Shown here one piece after another: positions 1 to 18,178 of a stretch of DNA of 31,616 bases. Each line of letters opens with the position of its first letter. Position 1 is the first letter of the stretch. The position numbers were made by a program, and so were the translations under genes. This DNA is from Alloascoidea africana (Eukaryota > Ascomycota > Alloascoideomycetes > Alloascoideales > Alloascoideaceae): the NCBI GenBank assembly GCA_030581615.1, contig JAKTTT010000111.1:1-31616 (forward strand), written 5' to 3'. The notes beneath the pieces are model-generated. The model had not been told where the DNA came from, did not search any database, and was given only the letters and a program-made list of their open reading frames with translations.

Positions 1-126
1 CAAGAAAACCTTTATTGATTACCTCTCTCTCCCTCTCCCTCTATAAAAGCCTTTCTTCTCATTAGGGTCTCATCTCCTGGTTCTCACCTCGCATCAGAAA
101 ACGATCTGTGAAAAAACCAAAAATAT

Positions 127-197
127 GCGTCAGTAGTTTAGTGGTAAAATCATACATTCCCATTGTATGGCCCCGGGTTCGATTCCCGGCTGTCGCA
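127..197 (+). tRNA. tRNA-Gly (anticodon CCC)
   Basis: A 71-nt cloverleaf can be folded by eye. The anticodon stem ATACA/TGTAT closes the loop TTCCCAT, giving anticodon CCC (glycine, GGG codons). The T arm is CCGGG-TTCGATT-CCCGG, and the discriminator base A is at 197. The D arm (AGTGGTAAAA) matches the second glycine tRNA in this window. The acceptor stem GCGTCAG/CTGTCGC has one T-T mismatch at the fourth pair; all other pairs are Watson-Crick. A TTTTT run at 204-208 is a good Pol III terminator. No intron is present. Confidence 0.93.
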
Positions 198-208
198 GAC
201 TTATTTTT

Positions 209-11939: not shown

Positions 11940-12691
11940 ATTATTCAAGCCCATTAATCTCTTTAAAGATTCCCCAGGAGAAGATGATTGGATGGCCATT
12001 GGTTTGTATAGTCTTCCTACATCTATAAAGACAAAAGTCAAAAGAAAAATTCAGGTGATAATAATTGAGCAAATCGATAATCTGCCGAAGAGCTTTCGAT
12101 GACACTAATGAGAACTTGGATAATCAGAATCACTATTCACGCTGAGTTTACTGTTGTAGGTGTCAATGGGACGTAGATAAGTTAATGGTCCTGGACAGTG
12201 GTGCCTCCGACCATATGAGTAGTGATTTGGATTCGCTTACTGGTTTCAAAGAGCTCTCAGAGCCGGATTATGTTATGATTGCTAATGGCTCAAGACTAGA
12301 ATTTCTGGGAAAAGGATCGCCCACGGTTAGTCTTAGAAATGGTACTCTACTTGAACTTGACGAAGTCCTCTATGTACCTGCGCTTCAGGCTAATTTAATC
12401 TCGACCAGACGTCTAAATGAAACCATTATCTTGACTCTGGATCGAGCTTACTTATGCCAGATCTCTAATAAAGATATTTCCCTTGGTGTTGAAATAGCCA
12501 CCCAACAAGATGGCCTTTTTGTAATTGGTCTGACCTATTATAAATATGCTCCTATCCATACAGCTCTGTTCGTTGCTCGACGCACCAAGCGTTTGAGCTT
12601 TGCAGCTACACAATTTTCGCATCTATTTGACGGTTGCGGAAGGAAACGAACTAGCCCATTGTTTGGTAAGAGAACAGAACCTCTGTTCTGA
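11940..12691 (+). mobile_element. Ty1/copia-type LTR retrotransposon relic (gag end and protease region)
   Basis: The 12185-12691 stretch has the copia signature VLDSGASDHM (retropepsin active site) and the following VLYVPALQANLIS motif, typical of the protease-integrase junction of Ty1/copia polyproteins. Weaker gag-like sequence precedes it from about 11940. The rest of pol and both LTRs are absent or not recognisable, so this is a fossil with several breaks. It lies in the same orientation as the Ty3 element next to it and upstream of the same tRNA gene, a usual location for such elements in yeasts. The left limit is uncertain. Confidence 0.75.
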
Positions 12692-12818
12692 ACCTTCAAG
12701 TTTTTGGCTCAAAAGATTGACATTAAGTAGCTTAAGAAGAAGAAAACTAAAAATACAAACAAAGCTGTTGAATATATTGAGCCTTTTTTTCATAATAATC
12801 ATAATTCTTTAAAAAGAA

Positions 12819-13114
12819 TGTAAGAGAAATGATTCTCTTGATCTCTGATTGGTTCTATTTAGTTTTAGTTATTCACATTCGCTCTCAGTTACCTTTCTCT
12901 TGCCTTAAGTTTACATTCAGTAACTACAAGCGATTATTCTAATAATCCTTTAGTTGCTCACATAGTTTTCTAGTTCTATATAAAGAGGCCTTTTTCCCTA
13001 AGTCTTGGGAGGAGGCATCAAAACACTGAATACATTTTCTTTCCTGTTTCTTCTGAACCTTTGAGCCCTGTTTATCCCCTTGTAGTAAGTGAATCCCCTG
13101 GCATTCATCTTACA
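12819..13114 (+). repeat. 5' LTR of the Ty3/Gypsy element (296 bp)
   Basis: Ends in the inverted hexamer TGTAAG/CTTACA. It holds a TATA box TATATAAA at 12977-12984 in the second half, the expected promoter position. By eye it is identical to the 3' copy at 17800-18095. The 5-bp AAGAA at 12814-12818 precedes it. Confidence 0.95.
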
Positions 13115-13116
13115 TT

Positions 13117-13124
13117 TGGTAGCG
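13117..13124 (+). other. Primer binding site (tRNA-iMet type)
   Basis: TGGTAGCG begins two bases after the 5' LTR. These eight bases are complementary to the 3' end of yeast initiator tRNA-Met, the primer of Ty1 and Ty3. Downstream sequence up to about 13143 loosely resembles the complement of the T arm of the same tRNA, but this is only suggestive. Confidence 0.8.
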
Positions 13125-13172
13125 ATTTCGTTTGATCCCGAGACCTACCTTACATTCTCCTCGTCCTTGTCC

Positions 13173-13263
13173 CAGTCCTCGTTCCCAGTCCTCGTTCCCA
13201 GTCCTCGTTCCCAGTCCTCGTTCCCAGTCCTCGTTCCCAGTCCTCGTTCCCAGTCCTCATTCT
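13173..13263 (+). repeat. 13-bp leader minisatellite, six perfect copies plus one imperfect
   Basis: Unit CAGTCCTCGTTCC repeats head to tail from 13173 to 13250, with a seventh variant copy to 13263. Degenerate (C/T)CAGTCCT-type units continue to about 13340. It lies in the untranslated leader between primer site and gag start. The leader contains no ATG before 13367. The antisense open frames over it are composition artefacts. Confidence 0.9.
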
Positions 13264-13366
13264 CAGTCCTTGTCCTTGTCCTTGTCTCAGTTCTCGTCCC
13301 TGTCTCAGTCCTCGTCCTCGTCTCAGTCCTCGTCCCCAGCCCTCGTCCCAACCCCCGTGTCAGTGA

Positions 13367-16300
13367 ATGAGCATCTTTGGTCTTGAAAATCCAGGAAGCT
13401 CAGACACTGAATCCGCCAACAGCAACTTCGTGGACTCAAACCAAATGCAGACCCAACCTCAAGCCTCTGATCCCCCCTCCTTGCCTCAGCCGCAGACCCC
13501 GGACCAGTCCCTGTCCATGTTTTCGTTTCGCTCTCCAACAATTGAGAAATACGATGGAGACCCGTCCCTGGAAAAGGTGGTGGCGTTTTTAAACACCGTA
13601 CGCCTGTCCTTCAATATTTTCCAAGTTAATACAGACATGGCTAAAATTTCGTATGCAGGATTGCATTTAAAGGGAAAGGCAATTATATGGTACACTACGG
13701 ATATCAATCCCATGGACATGACCTGGGAGGAATTCGAAGCGCAATTCAAGGAGCGATTTCTCCCAACCTATTACCTAGACGACATAATCATGGAGTTCGA
13801 ACACCTGACCCAGACGGGAACGGTGCGCGAATATGTCGAAAAGTTCAAGATGCTTTTAATCCAATTGGGACCGGGATGGTCGTCTGATCGGGCCATTTTA
13901 AACAAGTATCTGGCTGGTTTGAAAGAAGTACCTCAAATGCAGACTAGGATGGCAGAACCGGAAGACTTGGCGTCGGCGATTAGAAAATCCCTGGTCGTGG
14001 ACGACTATACGACAGGAGGACGCAGAAACAAGACCTCTTTCTCCAGCAATCGGAATGTCCCCAGTATCACGCCATCCACCGACAGCGACGGTGACGTGAT
14101 CATGACTCACTCTGTTTCAACCAATTTGCCGAAACTATCGCCTGGTGAACGAGAACGCTTACGCAGATTGGATAAGTGCTTTCGTTGCCGTACAGGTAAT
14201 CACTATGCGTCAGAATGCCCCTTGAACAAGCCTGCGCCACGCACCTGGCACACACCTCATCAGAACCGCCGCCCTAAGGGCCGCCTGACCCACCGCAGCT
14301 ACTCCCGCCCCAAGAACTACAGCAACAACCATGTGGAAACCAATCACGCCACATCGGATGTTCCCGTACCAAACGAACAGCTGTTAAACGTTCCATTCGT
14401 GATCAACGGATACAGAACGCCTTGCTTGTTGGACAGCGGCTGCACCACAAATTTAATCAGCCAAGAACGAGTGGCCACCCTGGAGCTGAACAACCTTATC
14501 CAGCCGCTGCCACAAACTCCAATCAAAATCTCAACAGCTGATCCCAACTCGTCAACCCTGGAGACTAAGGGTTTCATCACGTTTGACCTTGTCCTTGGAG
14601 ACTTTCGTGAGGAAGTAAGCGCCTTTGTGGTCAATGAGTTATCAAAAGGGGTCATCCTGGGAAAACAATTCATCTCCTTGCATGCAGCGGAGATCAACTG
14701 GAAGGATAATACGTTTAGAGGCGTTTCTGCACTTTCAGCAGTACTTGACGCAGGTTTAGTGCAAGCATGCCTGGTCGACGCAACAGAGTTCCGATCGGAT
14801 TTGCGATCTGGAGATCTCGGAGCCCTTACTGTTACCTTTCCCCAGGACATAAAAGAAACCCCAGTCCCTGATTTTGTATCTTCAGAATTTGCTGATGTTG
14901 TGAACAATAACCCCCTTCGATCAATCAACGACAGAGGTCCAGAATTTGAACACCGTATCGACCTCATCGAGGGATGGACGCCCAAAGCACGCAGGCCATA
15001 CAGATTGTCCTTTACTGAACGCCTGGAGCTAGATCGCCAAGTCCAAGATCTTCTCAACAAAGGCTTTATCAGGAAGTCTACTAGCCCCTTCTCCGCACCA
15101 CTCCTGTTTGTCAAAAAGCCAGATGGATCGCTAAGACTGTGTTTCGATTATCGCCTGTTGAATGAGATGACTATCCGCCACCGCTTCCCCTTGCCGCTTA
15201 TCGACGACCTTGTCAACCAGATAGGGAATGCCAAGGTCTTTTCCAAGCTTGACCTTGTATCCGGCTATCACCAGCTAGTCGTCAAGAAGCAGGATCGCTT
15301 TAAAACTGCCTTCTCGACCCCGACGGGCCATTTTGAATTTAATGTTCTCCCGTTCGGACTCTCTGGCGCCCCTGAAACATTCCAAAGACTCATGAATTCC
15401 CTATTCGGTGAAATGATAGGCAAATTCGTGGTCATTTATCTGGACGATTTCCTGGTATTCTCTCCCACACTGGAGGAACACAAGCAACACCTTCGGGCAG
15501 TCCTCTCGAAACTAAGAGAACACAAATTACAAGTTAAAAAGTCCAAGTGCATGTTTATGGTCCCTTCGGTCTCGTTCCTGGGTTTTCAGATAGATGGTGA
15601 CGGCCTTGCACCAGATCCTAAGAAAGTCACTGCCATAACCGACTGGCAAACTCCTAAGTCTTCGAGAGACACCAAATCCTTCCTAGGGCTTATAAATTAC
15701 TACAGAAGATTCGTCCCGGGTTTCTCCCACCACGCTGCTCCGCTAAACGACTTCGCAAACAACAAATGCGTGTGGGGACCGCCTCAACAAAAGTCTTTCG
15801 AGTTCTTCAAGCAGGCCCTGTCCCACTCGCCAGTCCTAATTATTCCAGATTTCCCTTCGGCCAATTTTAGGGTTTCTACAGACGCCAGCAATGTGGCAAT
15901 TGGGGCCGTACTGGAAGATGTGACAGAGGAAGGAGTTCTTAAAGGAGTCGTGGCATATTTCTCCCGAAAGTTAAACCCAGCTGAACTCAACTACCCGGTC
16001 CGCGAACAAGAACTACTCGCATTGGTCTCTGCGCTCAAAGCCTGGCGCCACTATCTAATAGGCGTACCCTTCATTGTTCGGACTGATCACCAATCACTGG
16101 TACAAGTACAAAATGGGAACAAGCAATCCATGGGAAGGCTAAACAGATGGTTACAACTACTTGCCGAATATGACTTTGCTATTGAATACATACCTGGTTC
16201 CACGAACAATGTCGCTGACGCTCTTAGCCGTCCGCCAGTCGAAGCTAATACATTACAAGCTTCAGTACGAGAGGTTTCTTTTGACATTGAACAGCTCGTG

Positions 16301-17788
16301 TTGGAATACAGAAGGGATCCCGACCTTAAACAAATCTACGACATTTTGGAATCCGGAAAAGACACACCCAAAGAAATTAACGCCTATATCAAGCATTTCC
16401 GTTTGGATTACAACAAGTGTTTATACTTTGCGGCAATTGTTGGTTCGACTACTTGGCGCTTGTGTCTTCCCCACGGTACCATCCGCGACAAAGTTATCTA
16501 CGACGCCCATGACGCGGCTATTGCTTCTCATCCTGGTTACTACAAGACTTATCTTATATTGGCAAACAAATACTGGTGGAAGAATATGTCCAGATCCATC
16601 AAAAGATATGTTCAGCGCTGTTTAGTCTGCCAAACAACCAAGTCCTCGACTTTGGCCTCACAGGGCCTCCTTATGCCGCTTGCAATCCCAGAAGAACGTT
16701 GGTCCGATGTCAGCCTTGACTTTATCACAGATCTCCCTCAAACTGAGAATGGTTACAATGCGATTTTAGTAGTCACGGACAGATTGACTAAACGCGGACA
16801 CTTTATTCCTACGACAAAGGAAGTTACGGGTGAGATTGCAGGACACCTATTCCACGAAAACATTGTCAAACTTCATGGAATTCCGAAAGTTGTGGTTTCT
16901 GACCGCGACCCGCGCTTTACGGGTAAGTTTTGGAAGTCATTGCATGCCAGAGTCGGAACAAGACTAGATATGTCTACAACAAACCATCCTGAATCGGACG
17001 GGCAAACAGAGAGACTCAATCGAACCCTCGGGCAAATGTTACGAGCCTACGCCCTTCAAAACCCATTACTATGGACTCATTACTTAGGCACGGCGGAATT
17101 TGCTTATAACGCCGCCTTTCAATCTAGTATTGGCATGAGTCCTTTCATGGCTGATCTAGGTTACGAGCCAAGCCGCCCAGAAATACTTCCGATTGGTAAT
17201 CTTCCTTATTCCTTGGCCGCCGATGACTTCACTACAAAGATTAAGGCTATTTTAAAATTGGTTCAGGACTCTATGGTGGAAGCACAAAGGTCTCAAGAGG
17301 CTTCCTACAACCAACATAAAAGAGAAGTCCTCTACAAAGTTGGTGATCTTGTTTTGATTCATCGCCAAGCTTATATTGCAACAGGAAAATTCCACAAGCT
17401 CAAACCTGTTTTCTTTGGGCCTTTCAAGCTGGTTAAAGAGGTTAACCAGAATGCGTTCGAAGTTGATATTCCTGACCATAGGAGGAAGTATAGGGTTATC
17501 AACAAGAAATGGTTTAAAAAGTTCCTTGGAGGAGATTCTTACGCTAAAAGCCCTCCCAACACTGAAGCTGAAGTGCTTTCTCGTATAAACGAGATGACGG
17601 CAATAATGGGTATTGACAAAGCAAAAGAAATGTTTTATGTTACCTGGTCTGATTGTGACCCAACCCTGGTAACTGCTGTTTCTTTTAAAACATTCTGCGA
17701 AGGTAAAGATACTCTCCTGGAAACCCTGCTCGATAATTGGAAGAGTTTACACCCGTCAGAACCCTCAGAGGTAGAAGTTGAAAAGTAA
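13367..17788 (+). CDS. Fused Gag-Pol polyprotein of the Ty3/Gypsy element
   Basis: 1,473 aa in a single frame. Order: retrotransposon Gag/capsid (about 50-220), zinc knuckle CFRCRTGNHYASEC (from 271), retropepsin LLDSGCTTN (D356), reverse transcriptase with YLDDF (D693/D694), RNase H (TDASNVAIGAVL), integrase zinc region (CLVCQTT), catalytic core D1118, D1179, E1215 (D-35-E spacing), and a C-terminal segment (about 1405-1465) that resembles a divergent chromodomain. The start ATG is the first in the leader. There is no frameshift or stop between gag and pol, unlike Ty3 itself; single-frame elements such as Tf1 are known. The frame looks whole. Confidence 0.93.
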   Translation: MSIFGLENPGSSDTESANSNFVDSNQMQTQPQASDPPSLPQPQTPDQSLSMFSFRSPTIEKYDGDPSLEKVVAFLNTVRLSFNIFQVNTDMAKISYAGLHLKGKAIIWYTTDINPMDMTWEEFEAQFKERFLPTYYLDDIIMEFEHLTQTGTVREYVEKFKMLLIQLGPGWSSDRAILNKYLAGLKEVPQMQTRMAEPEDLASAIRKSLVVDDYTTGGRRNKTSFSSNRNVPSITPSTDSDGDVIMTHSVSTNLPKLSPGERERLRRLDKCFRCRTGNHYASECPLNKPAPRTWHTPHQNRRPKGRLTHRSYSRPKNYSNNHVETNHATSDVPVPNEQLLNVPFVINGYRTPCLLDSGCTTNLISQERVATLELNNLIQPLPQTPIKISTADPNSSTLETKGFITFDLVLGDFREEVSAFVVNELSKGVILGKQFISLHAAEINWKDNTFRGVSALSAVLDAGLVQACLVDATEFRSDLRSGDLGALTVTFPQDIKETPVPDFVSSEFADVVNNNPLRSINDRGPEFEHRIDLIEGWTPKARRPYRLSFTERLELDRQVQDLLNKGFIRKSTSPFSAPLLFVKKPDGSLRLCFDYRLLNEMTIRHRFPLPLIDDLVNQIGNAKVFSKLDLVSGYHQLVVKKQDRFKTAFSTPTGHFEFNVLPFGLSGAPETFQRLMNSLFGEMIGKFVVIYLDDFLVFSPTLEEHKQHLRAVLSKLREHKLQVKKSKCMFMVPSVSFLGFQIDGDGLAPDPKKVTAITDWQTPKSSRDTKSFLGLINYYRRFVPGFSHHAAPLNDFANNKCVWGPPQQKSFEFFKQALSHSPVLIIPDFPSANFRVSTDASNVAIGAVLEDVTEEGVLKGVVAYFSRKLNPAELNYPVREQELLALVSALKAWRHYLIGVPFIVRTDHQSLVQVQNGNKQSMGRLNRWLQLLAEYDFAIEYIPGSTNNVADALSRPPVEANTLQASVREVSFDIEQLVLEYRRDPDLKQIYDILESGKDTPKEINAYIKHFRLDYNKCLYFAAIVGSTTWRLCLPHGTIRDKVIYDAHDAAIASHPGYYKTYLILANKYWWKNMSRSIKRYVQRCLVCQTTKSSTLASQGLLMPLAIPEERWSDVSLDFITDLPQTENGYNAILVVTDRLTKRGHFIPTTKEVTGEIAGHLFHENIVKLHGIPKVVVSDRDPRFTGKFWKSLHARVGTRLDMSTTNHPESDGQTERLNRTLGQMLRAYALQNPLLWTHYLGTAEFAYNAAFQSSIGMSPFMADLGYEPSRPEILPIGNLPYSLAADDFTTKIKAILKLVQDSMVEAQRSQEASYNQHKREVLYKVGDLVLIHRQAYIATGKFHKLKPVFFGPFKLVKEVNQNAFEVDIPDHRRKYRVINKKWFKKFLGGDSYAKSPPNTEAEVLSRINEMTAIMGIDKAKEMFYVTWSDCDPTLVTAVSFKTFCEGKDTLLETLLDNWKSLHPSEPSEVEVEK

Positions 17789-17791
17789 AGT

Positions 17792-17799
17792 GAGGAGGA
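17792..17799 (+). other. Polypurine tract
   Basis: GAGGAGGA lies directly before the TG of the 3' LTR, just after the gag-pol stop codon, the expected place for priming of plus-strand synthesis. Confidence 0.7.
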
Positions 17800-18095
17800 T
17801 GTAAGAGAAATGATTCTCTTGATCTCTGATTGGTTCTATTTAGTTTTAGTTATTCACATTCGCTCTCAGTTACCTTTCTCTTGCCTTAAGTTTACATTCA
17901 GTAACTACAAGCGATTATTCTAATAATCCTTTAGTTGCTCACATAGTTTTCTAGTTCTATATAAAGAGGCCTTTTTCCCTAAGTCTTGGGAGGAGGCATC
18001 AAAACACTGAATACATTTTCTTTCCTGTTTCTTCTGAACCTTTGAGCCCTGTTTATCCCCTTGTAGTAAGTGAATCCCCTGGCATTCATCTTACA
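17800..18095 (+). repeat. 3' LTR of the Ty3/Gypsy element (296 bp)
   Basis: Same length and, read by eye, same sequence as the 5' copy. Followed directly by the target duplication AAGAA at 18096-18100. Confidence 0.95.
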
Positions 18096-18107
18096 AAGAA
18101 AAAATAA

Positions 18108-18178
18108 GCGTTAGTGGTTTAGCGGTAAAATTCGTCGTTGCCATCGACGAGCCCCCGGTTCGACTCCGGGCTGACGCA
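18108..18178 (+). tRNA. tRNA-Gly (anticodon GCC)
   Basis: 71-nt cloverleaf. Acceptor stem GCGTTAG/CTGACGC is fully paired (one T-G), anticodon stem CGTCG/CGACG closes TTGCCAT (anticodon GCC), T arm is CCCGG-TTCGACT-CCGGG, discriminator A. It is very close to the yeast tRNA-Gly(GCC) sequence. Pol III terminator T runs stand at 18194-18198 and 18203-18208. The Ty3 element sits in its 5' flank, upstream of the internal promoter boxes, so the gene itself is intact. Confidence 0.96.

Follow-up and report, generated by a model that had tools for sequence, protein, structure and literature searches.

In the window (the whole 31,616-nt stretch of Alloascoidea africana DNA analysed here), an LTR retrotransposon ends 12 nt before a tRNA-Gly(GCC) gene. 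Does this position reflect targeting of the Pol III initiation region, and what becomes of such a target once it has been occupied? It is known that Ty3-type elements target Pol III genes precisely; the long-term genomic effect of this targeting is less clear.

The element and its target site

Between its LTRs, the element at 12819–18095 carries protease, reverse transcriptase, RNase H and integrase in the order typical of Metaviridae, identifying it as Ty3/Gypsy (Table 1). The initial annotation had described a very young insertion with identical LTRs, an uninterrupted frame and a clean AAGAA duplication, and all of this held up: base-by-base comparison of the two LTRs gave 0 differences in 296 sites, the gag-pol frame contains no stop, and the 5-bp repeat is found at both ends. 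By the rule of three, LTR divergence is below about 1%, and 'very young' is therefore fair. Two of the earlier measurements needed adjustment. The span given, 12814–18178, does contain the element but runs from the start of the duplication to the end of the tRNA gene; the duplication, said to end 8 bp before the mature tRNA, is indeed close to it, at a distance of 7 nt (18101–18107). Because ARAGORN starts can shift by one base (some genes carry an extra leading T), such distances have an error of about 1 nt.

The 10 nt of the primer-binding site are complementary to the CCA-tailed 3' end of all three initiator tRNA-Met copies found. The match ends at 10 nt, since none of the eight genomic occurrences of the 11-mer CGAAATCGCTA, the longer primer complement, falls in an ARAGORN-recognised tRNA. 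Initiator-Met priming and a 5-bp duplication are also features of Ty3. The end of the purine-rich tract, GAGGAGGA, is found again before the copy at C23. On the distal side, the family-D solo LTR shows an identity of 94% (12666–12764) and 90% (12768–12809); a Copia fragment (about 12188–12421) adjoins it, and nothing connects the two beyond adjacency.

Table 1. Features of the retrotransposon and its surroundings, in window coordinates
Feature	Position	Strand	Remarks
Older solo LTR, family D	12666..12809	+	internal deletion; just distal to target duplication
Target-site duplication AAGAA, distal copy	12814..12818	+	from sequence
5' LTR	12819..13114	+	296 bp, TGTAAG...CTTACA; matches 17800–18095 without difference
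Primer-binding site TGGTAGCGAT	13117..13126	+	begins two nt past 5' LTR
13-bp minisatellite (TCCCAGTCCTCGT)	13157..13286	+	5' untranslated leader; repeat search
Single gag-pol ORF	13367..17788	+	1,473 aa, stop-free
Capsid, Pfam Ty3_capsid	13532..14029	+	residues 56–221, 4.6e-25
CCHC zinc knuckle, weak	14174..14221	+	E 0.036, under Pfam's cut-off; CX2CX4HX4C seen in sequence
Aspartic protease (DSG)	14390..14671	+	residues 342–435, E 4.5e-5
Reverse transcriptase	15110..15592	+	residues 582–742, 2.6e-36
RNase H	15854..16171	+	residues 830–935, 1.7e-33
Integrase H2C2 zinc domain and core	16478..16990	+	zinc residues 1038–1094, 9.5e-19; core residues 1117–1208
Integrase SH3-like C-terminal domain	17342..17488	+	SH3_Tf2-1, residues 1326–1374
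Vestigial chromodomain	17558..17755	+	aligned to Ty3 integrase 446–511
Purine-rich tract AAAGTGAGGAGGA	17787..17799	+	directly 5' of 3' LTR; from sequence
3' LTR	17800..18095	+	296 bp; no difference from 12819–13114; 12 nt before mature tRNA
Target-site duplication AAGAA, tRNA-side copy	18096..18100	+	from sequence; tRNA gene positions -12 to -8
tRNA-Gly(GCC) gene	18108..18178	+	insertion target; ARAGORN

Relationship to Ty3 and other Pol III-targeting elements

By alignment, the capsid and integrase are nearer to Ty3 than to retroviral integrases, the SH3–chromodomain tail included. The integrase matches Ty3 at 2.6e-93 versus PFV at 3.4e-26 (alignment E-values), the capsid falls in the Ty3_capsid family, and the closest solved structures for the reverse transcriptase are those of Ty3. 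The rve match of the integrase core (4.5e-5) is under Pfam's cut-off, yet it lies inside the Ty3 integrase alignment. The chromodomain region differs more, with just 19/66 positions identical to Ty3, whose integrase numbering we take to be polyprotein numbering minus 1011, from the presumed length of that integrase.

The polyprotein had initially been set apart from that of Ty3 by its single frame and its chromodomain-like end. The first distinction stands, as Ty3 has two overlapping ORFs, GAG3 and POL3, joined by a +1 frameshift (PMC5911963), where the window element has one frame. The second does not: the alignment to Ty3 integrase (PDB 7q5b) ends at most 22 residues short of the Ty3 polyprotein C-terminus, Ty3's own chromodomain included, which rules out the chromodomain as a separator. 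The chromodomain-like fold of the integrase end would also suit a chromovirus that reads histone marks and whose position at tRNA genes reflects chance or the local chromatin. We give this next to no probability. The Chromo family is absent from the 14 Pfam families matched by the whole ORF (E up to 0.1), and a chromovirus with a canonical chromodomain was rejected on this ground; the Ty3 domain to which the integrase end aligns is described as vestigial, without an aromatic cage, and as contacting TFIIIB (PMC8632968); and placement is precise to the base level.

Ty3 of Saccharomyces cerevisiae shares with the window element the domain order, the Ty3_capsid family, the SH3 domain and vestigial chromodomain of the integrase, and insertion where Pol III transcription starts (PMC8632968, PMC5911963). 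Tyl3 of Yarrowia lipolytica, compared by description and not by sequence, is reported to have the same TGTAAG/CTTACA LTR ends, a 5-bp duplication, a purine tract, an initiator-Met primer site two nt past the LTR and insertions at tRNA start sites; it differs in its 244-bp LTR (296 bp here) and in GAG and POL ORFs that lie 324 bp apart instead of forming one ORF (PMC5014426). DGLT-A of Dictyostelium is likewise a single-ORF element, located some 15 bp 5' of tRNA genes, but it has an amoeba host and reportedly neither a matching tRNA primer nor the chromodomain present in the window integrase (PMC5006619). Tj1 of Schizosaccharomyces japonicus has Pol III targeting and a 5-bp duplication in common with our element, whereas it is described as self-primed, as needing a stop codon between Gag and Pol, and as having all its sequenced Pol III insertions in one orientation (PMC4600332); in the genome studied here, both orientations are present. 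Insertions no farther than about 20 nt from a tRNA 5' end, a 5-bp duplication and an initiator tRNA-Met primer-binding site place the window element in the Ty3-type Pol III group. This kind of targeting is already known from Ty3, Tyl3, Tj1 and DGLT-A, and the renewable stacks described below are the more interesting result; in titles and abstract openings of the open-access literature we found no description of same-site LTR stacks, which is not a claim that they are absent from print.

Distribution of LTRs around tRNA genes

A search of the 23.18-Mb genome with the window LTR (family W) gave 25 matches, which reduce to 22 insertions when the window's LTR pair and two fragments at C16 are each merged and one match with E = 0.13 is dropped. 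tRNA genes were called by ARAGORN in intron mode; the intron-less mode missed intron-bearing tRNAs. A tRNA gene was found within 1.5 kb of 18 of the 22 insertions, and 17 of these 18 lie on its 5' side; by chance, about 2.7% of places would be as near to a tRNA B-box word. Five insertions lie directly at a tRNA gene, at 11–14 nt (one of the five inferred from a truncated match), and others sit farther out, displaced behind later layers. For one copy (C14:124911), the nearest tRNA found lies 102 bp away, with the copy on its downstream side. The examined flanks of four insertions contained no tRNA (C22:1004, C100:46996, C32 and C66), the first two being interrupted by a contig end. Relative to the tRNA, family W is in the same orientation in the window (C111) and in the opposite one at C4, C2 and C105. 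The initial annotation had named copies without Pol III association as the counter-evidence to look for, and the survey did not overturn the proposal. Pol III targeting by family W is supported, as proposed there, by genome-wide position, by the bias to the 5' side and by reuse of the same five bases.

The pattern extends beyond this family, although a Ty3-type polymerase is established for W only among the LTR families counted. LTRs of some twelve families end 11–14 nt upstream of tRNA genes. Such spacing was seen for 27 of 31 proximal complete LTR ends, or 17 of 21 once ten representatives whose end had been set at a tRNA were dropped. A set of 63 tRNA genes, taken from a covariance-model ranking and chosen independently of LTRs, was scored for a repeat in common with the region upstream of another isoacceptor's tRNA gene. 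Such a repeat ends within 20 nt of the gene in 30 cases and farther out in 11, and it is absent from 22. Downstream the picture differs: in 20 such genes, no repeat in the 401-bp flank recurs in the examined upstream regions or in the flank of another of these genes (0/20). From coordinates alone, 22/42 copies of family C and 17/41 of family D have a B-box word no more than 1.5 kb away (about 1.1 expected for each), 37 of these 39 being on the 5' side; eight family-C copies are at 64–66 nt by B-box coordinate count. Copia reverse transcriptase gave 34 matches, of which by-eye comparison with tRNA coordinates placed only the C75 cluster close (about 0.9 kb). 5S rRNA gave a single match in the genome.

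Selection without targeting could in principle leave such a distribution in a compact genome if elements inserted anywhere and survived solely upstream of tRNA genes, insertions within genes being purged and tRNA 5' flanks being safe (general knowledge; PMC5911963). Selection alone would hardly yield the 11–14-nt spacing, the reuse of the same five bases up to five times or the clean downstream side, and we consider it very unlikely. We favour, with a probability of roughly 90%, a recently inserted, coding-intact Ty3-type LTR retrotransposon whose integrase steers it to the region of Pol III initiation. Initiator tRNA-Met would prime reverse transcription. Through its SH3 domain and vestigial chromodomain, the integrase would dock on TFIIIB (TBP/Brf1) at the tRNA gene, a contact that we infer by homology, and would insert the LTR ends with a 5-bp stagger around -12 to -8.

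Stacked insertions and their order

Several tRNA genes bear stacks of different LTRs with the same 5-mer between layers, and one gene can hold as many as four or five insertions that different families have made successively in the same 5 bp. Junction 5-mers repeated within stacks include ATCTC and AAGGT (five times each), ATGAG (four times) and CAAAA (three times); strictly the same 5-mer flanks the inner layer in only 8 of 22 adjacent pairs with complete ends and a gap of 3–8 nt. Stacks might also arise without serial insertion, by recombination or gene conversion copying whole blocks between tRNA loci. Some neighbours do share blocks (L110, L126 and L046, which have family I in common), and the flanks of the C23 stack are mismatched (AGCAT versus TTGAC). 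Block copying would, however, transfer the same 5-mer and order, whereas the clearest stacks (C112, C14, C2 and C4) each have their own 5-mer, tRNA and family order, and we regard it as unlikely.

Serial insertion would have proceeded with many LTR families taking the same site in turn, giving LTR–5mer–LTR–5mer–tRNA with older layers outward. Age order was examined with a rule-based test of 15 stacks, reduced to 14 when L110, a tie in which one LTR was counted twice, was dropped. Of 22 adjacent pairs without a tie, 18 had the closer relative in the proximal layer (p = 0.002; the permutation test gave p = 0.00035), for which reason proximal layers look younger. Against this order stand 4 of the 22 pairs and, comparing innermost with outermost layers, 2 of the 14 stacks; the C14 tRNA-Phe stack contradicts it. 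At the window tRNA-Gly gene, an old family-D LTR is followed by the young W element nearest the gene. Since the 5 bp are duplicated, as seen in the sequence, the tRNA-side copy keeps its distance to the gene and the site is reusable; each insertion appears to renew its own target. The tRNA Pol III start is thus probably a renewable pad used serially by at least ten LTR families, some of which may not be Ty3-type: the exact 5-bp target would be regenerated, older insertions pushed outward and the stack ordered in time, the layer nearest the gene being the youngest, which would date families without a molecular clock.

That single tRNA genes hold so many successive insertions suggests that insertion does not exhaust the target and that the stacks preserve a relative chronology of retrotransposon activity. 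This chronology could be used to test for burst-wise replacement among families, and the stacks to test whether heavy LTR loading alters tRNA gene expression. The element combines Ty3's targeting tail and one continuous Gag-Pol frame, which makes it a useful contrast for how Gag excess arises.

Structure of the window element

The assembly containing the window comprises 23.18 Mb in 138 contigs, hereafter given C numbers, with the window being C111; by inspection its genes have a fungal look and are probably from a yeast. Base-by-base comparison of the two 296-bp LTRs of the Ty3-like element (family W) showed that no base differs between the two copies, and an AAGAA duplication forms both flanks. 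The mature start of tRNA-Gly(GCC) lies 7 nt past the duplication and 12 nt past the LTR. One frame of 1,473 aa encodes a Ty3-type capsid, protease, reverse transcriptase, RNase H and integrase. The Copia-type fragment in the same window is distal to a family-D LTR remnant.

Features of the window and of four LTR stacks (layers listed from outside to inside)
Feature	Location	Description
Ty3-like element	12819–18095	LTR-bounded
Primer site	begins two nt past the 5' LTR	TGGTAGCGAT, 10-nt match to the initiator tRNA-Met end
13-bp minisatellite	13157–13286	untranslated leader, primer site to gag start
Copia-type fragment	about 12188–12421 (within 12185–12691)	Pfam Pol_BBD, 7.3e-19
Family-H LTR remnant	1–113	95% identity
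tRNA-Gly(CCC), second tRNA of the window	126–198	family-H remnant ends 12 nt upstream
tRNA-Glu stack	C112	D, C, H remnants plus unassigned 93 nt, W, B; ATCTC at five junctions
tRNA-Pro(AGG) stack	C14	B, F, C, J, M; AAGGT at five junctions
tRNA-Glu stack	C2	C, E, D, W; ATGAG at four junctions
tRNA-Pro stack	C4	C, B, W; CAAAA at three junctions

The start-site context was taken from 32 tRNA loci sorted by hand as being without a nearby family match. Upstream of these loci the sequence is, roughly, T-rich from -18 to -14, with A at -12, C at -9 and an A-rich stretch thereafter. The five duplicated bases, which in the window occupy -12 to -8, span the position of this C-A step (-9/-8), a probable Pol III start judging from the sequence.

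LTR families at tRNA genes

A search with the W LTR gave 25 matches, reduced to 22 insertions by merging the window LTR pair and two C16 pieces and by dropping a match with E = 0.13. In the stretches examined around each insertion, a tRNA gene was found within 1.5 kb of 18 of the 22, and the LTR lay 5' of the gene in 17 of these 18, the exception being C14:124911, 102 bp downstream. Five insertions are directly at a tRNA gene, at 12 nt in the window, 14 nt on C4, 11 nt on C2, 13 nt on C105 and 17 nt at C14:265277, where the match is short of four LTR bases, so that the real distance is about 13 nt. Within family W, an intact frame was seen in the window copy only. The nearest relatives of its reverse transcriptase are partial matches on C10 and C92 (81–88%), and the rest are lower. 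C123:14734–15969 encodes a reverse transcriptase 34% identical to that of the window, with a long open frame of 1,613 aa, and represents a second, apparently intact Ty3/Gypsy lineage. On C62, a W LTR and its primer site reach the contig end, and therefore at least one further W copy with internal sequence may be missing from the assembly. On C83 (stretches L016/L038), two W LTRs face each other, 348 nt apart, each followed inward by a primer site, an arrangement that suggests a rearranged or doubly inserted element. On C23 (L066/L014), a family-M LTR and then a longer initiator-Met primer match, TGGTAGCGATGC, lie beyond the W LTR and its purine tract; the internal region between the M and W LTRs seems to have been mostly deleted.

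At many tRNA genes, an LTR end occupies the bases immediately upstream. Twelve families (W, B–K and M) were named from repeats common to several tRNA loci or from inverted-end duplications. At 31 tRNA loci the closest family match is complete on its tRNA side and ends no more than 30 nt away, and 27 of these ends lie 11–14 nt from the tRNA, the other four being at 9, 16, 23 and 26 nt; a possible one-base error in the ARAGORN tRNA starts affects these distances. The ends of seven family representatives (F, G, H, I, J, K and M) had been set by hand at a tRNA, and three others (B, C and E) came from a search restricted to 5–20 nt; without these ten, 17 of 21 proximal ends lie at 11–14 nt. On C62 (L007/L037), a pair of inverted family-J arms separated by 17 nt makes up a 577-bp unit, which has TGTAAG/CTTACA termini and, at the tRNA, a 5-bp duplication. 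This unit may be a derivative, either fold-back or dimeric, that used the same site.

Covariance-model scoring provided a list of 63 tRNA genes, a sample of a larger genomic total. Of these, 30 have an upstream repeat that is common to a different isoacceptor and ends within 20 nt, 11 have such a repeat further off and 22 have none; an earlier count of 62 genes gave 29, 11 and 22, respectively. The 401-bp downstream flanks of 20 listed genes had no repeat in common with the compared upstream regions or with one another. Upstream of the same genes, a shared repeat was present in 11/19 within 400 bp and in 7/19 within 20 nt, the twentieth region having been merged with another locus. On coordinates alone, a B-box word occurs within 1.5 kb of 22 of the 42 listed family-C copies and 17 of the 41 listed family-D copies, each list drawn from up to 40 scored candidates. 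Of these 39 copies, 37 are on the 5' side, as counted among the listed copies and words, the latter being part of all matches and including background words.

Stacked LTRs and their probable age order

Several tRNA genes carry successive upstream LTRs joined by the same 5-mer (see the table). Such junctions are what distance-based targeting would produce, the duplication leaving a target copy in the same place. At the C14 tRNA-Pro(AGG), two of the five junctions follow an LTR apparently one base short, and one of the four at the C2 tRNA-Glu follows a degenerate E end. Of 22 neighbouring pairs in which the ends are complete and 3–8 nt intervene, 13 have a gap of exactly 5 nt, and 8 have strictly identical 5-mers flanking the inner layer, that nearer the tRNA; other pairs have a one-base boundary difference or an incomplete inner end, and some mismatch, as on C23. 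At a contig end, C22:1–2795 (L013) contains closely spaced copies of C, F, W, C and F; no tRNA was found in the stretch examined, and this is probably another stack whose tRNA is unassembled. Our searches of an open-access library turned up no account of same-5-mer stacks; older papers may contain one.

As a proxy for age, we used identity to the nearest other copy among the copies compared, an outcome that depends on that copy set. All tRNA loci with two or more measurable layers (families W and B–F, at least 85% complete) were taken, giving 14 stacks; layers of families G–M and partial copies, which have no such identity, were left aside. The stretch L110, where one LTR was counted twice, was omitted as a tie, leaving the score unaffected. 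In 18 of the 22 pairs of neighbouring layers it is the inner one that has the closer relative (p = 0.002), and in 12 of the 14 stacks the innermost layer has a closer relative than the outermost (permutation p = 0.00035 for the age order). Reversed pairs occur at the C14 tRNA-Phe and on C112, C4 and C88.

Relation to Ty3 and other tRNA-associated elements

Ty3 is the best solved relative of both the reverse transcriptase (E = 1.2e-123) and the integrase (2.6e-93). The integrase alignment extends to residue 1525 of the 1547 in the Ty3 polyprotein and spans the Ty3 chromodomain, where 19 of 66 positions are identical. According to the available part of a cryo-EM study (PMC8632968), this chromodomain, previously thought missing from S. 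cerevisiae Ty3/Gypsy elements, is without a histone-binding cage and touches Brf1 and target DNA. The initial annotation had set the element apart from Ty3 by its single frame and chromodomain-like end; since the alignment covers Ty3's own chromodomain, we have dropped the latter contrast, while the single-frame difference stands. Ty3-gypsy elements beside tRNA genes, as named in the part of PMC5911963 available, are Ty3, Ty3p, Tj1, Tca8/beta, Tyl3, Ylt1, Tyl6 and DGLT-A. By the features reported in the available parts of PMC5014426 and PMC5006619, respectively, Tyl3 is nearest in LTR ends and primer site, and DGLT-A in its single frame. Because tRNA-adjoining Ty3-gypsy elements are thus already known from PMC5911963, as far as the part available goes, we regard the window element as a further member of that group.
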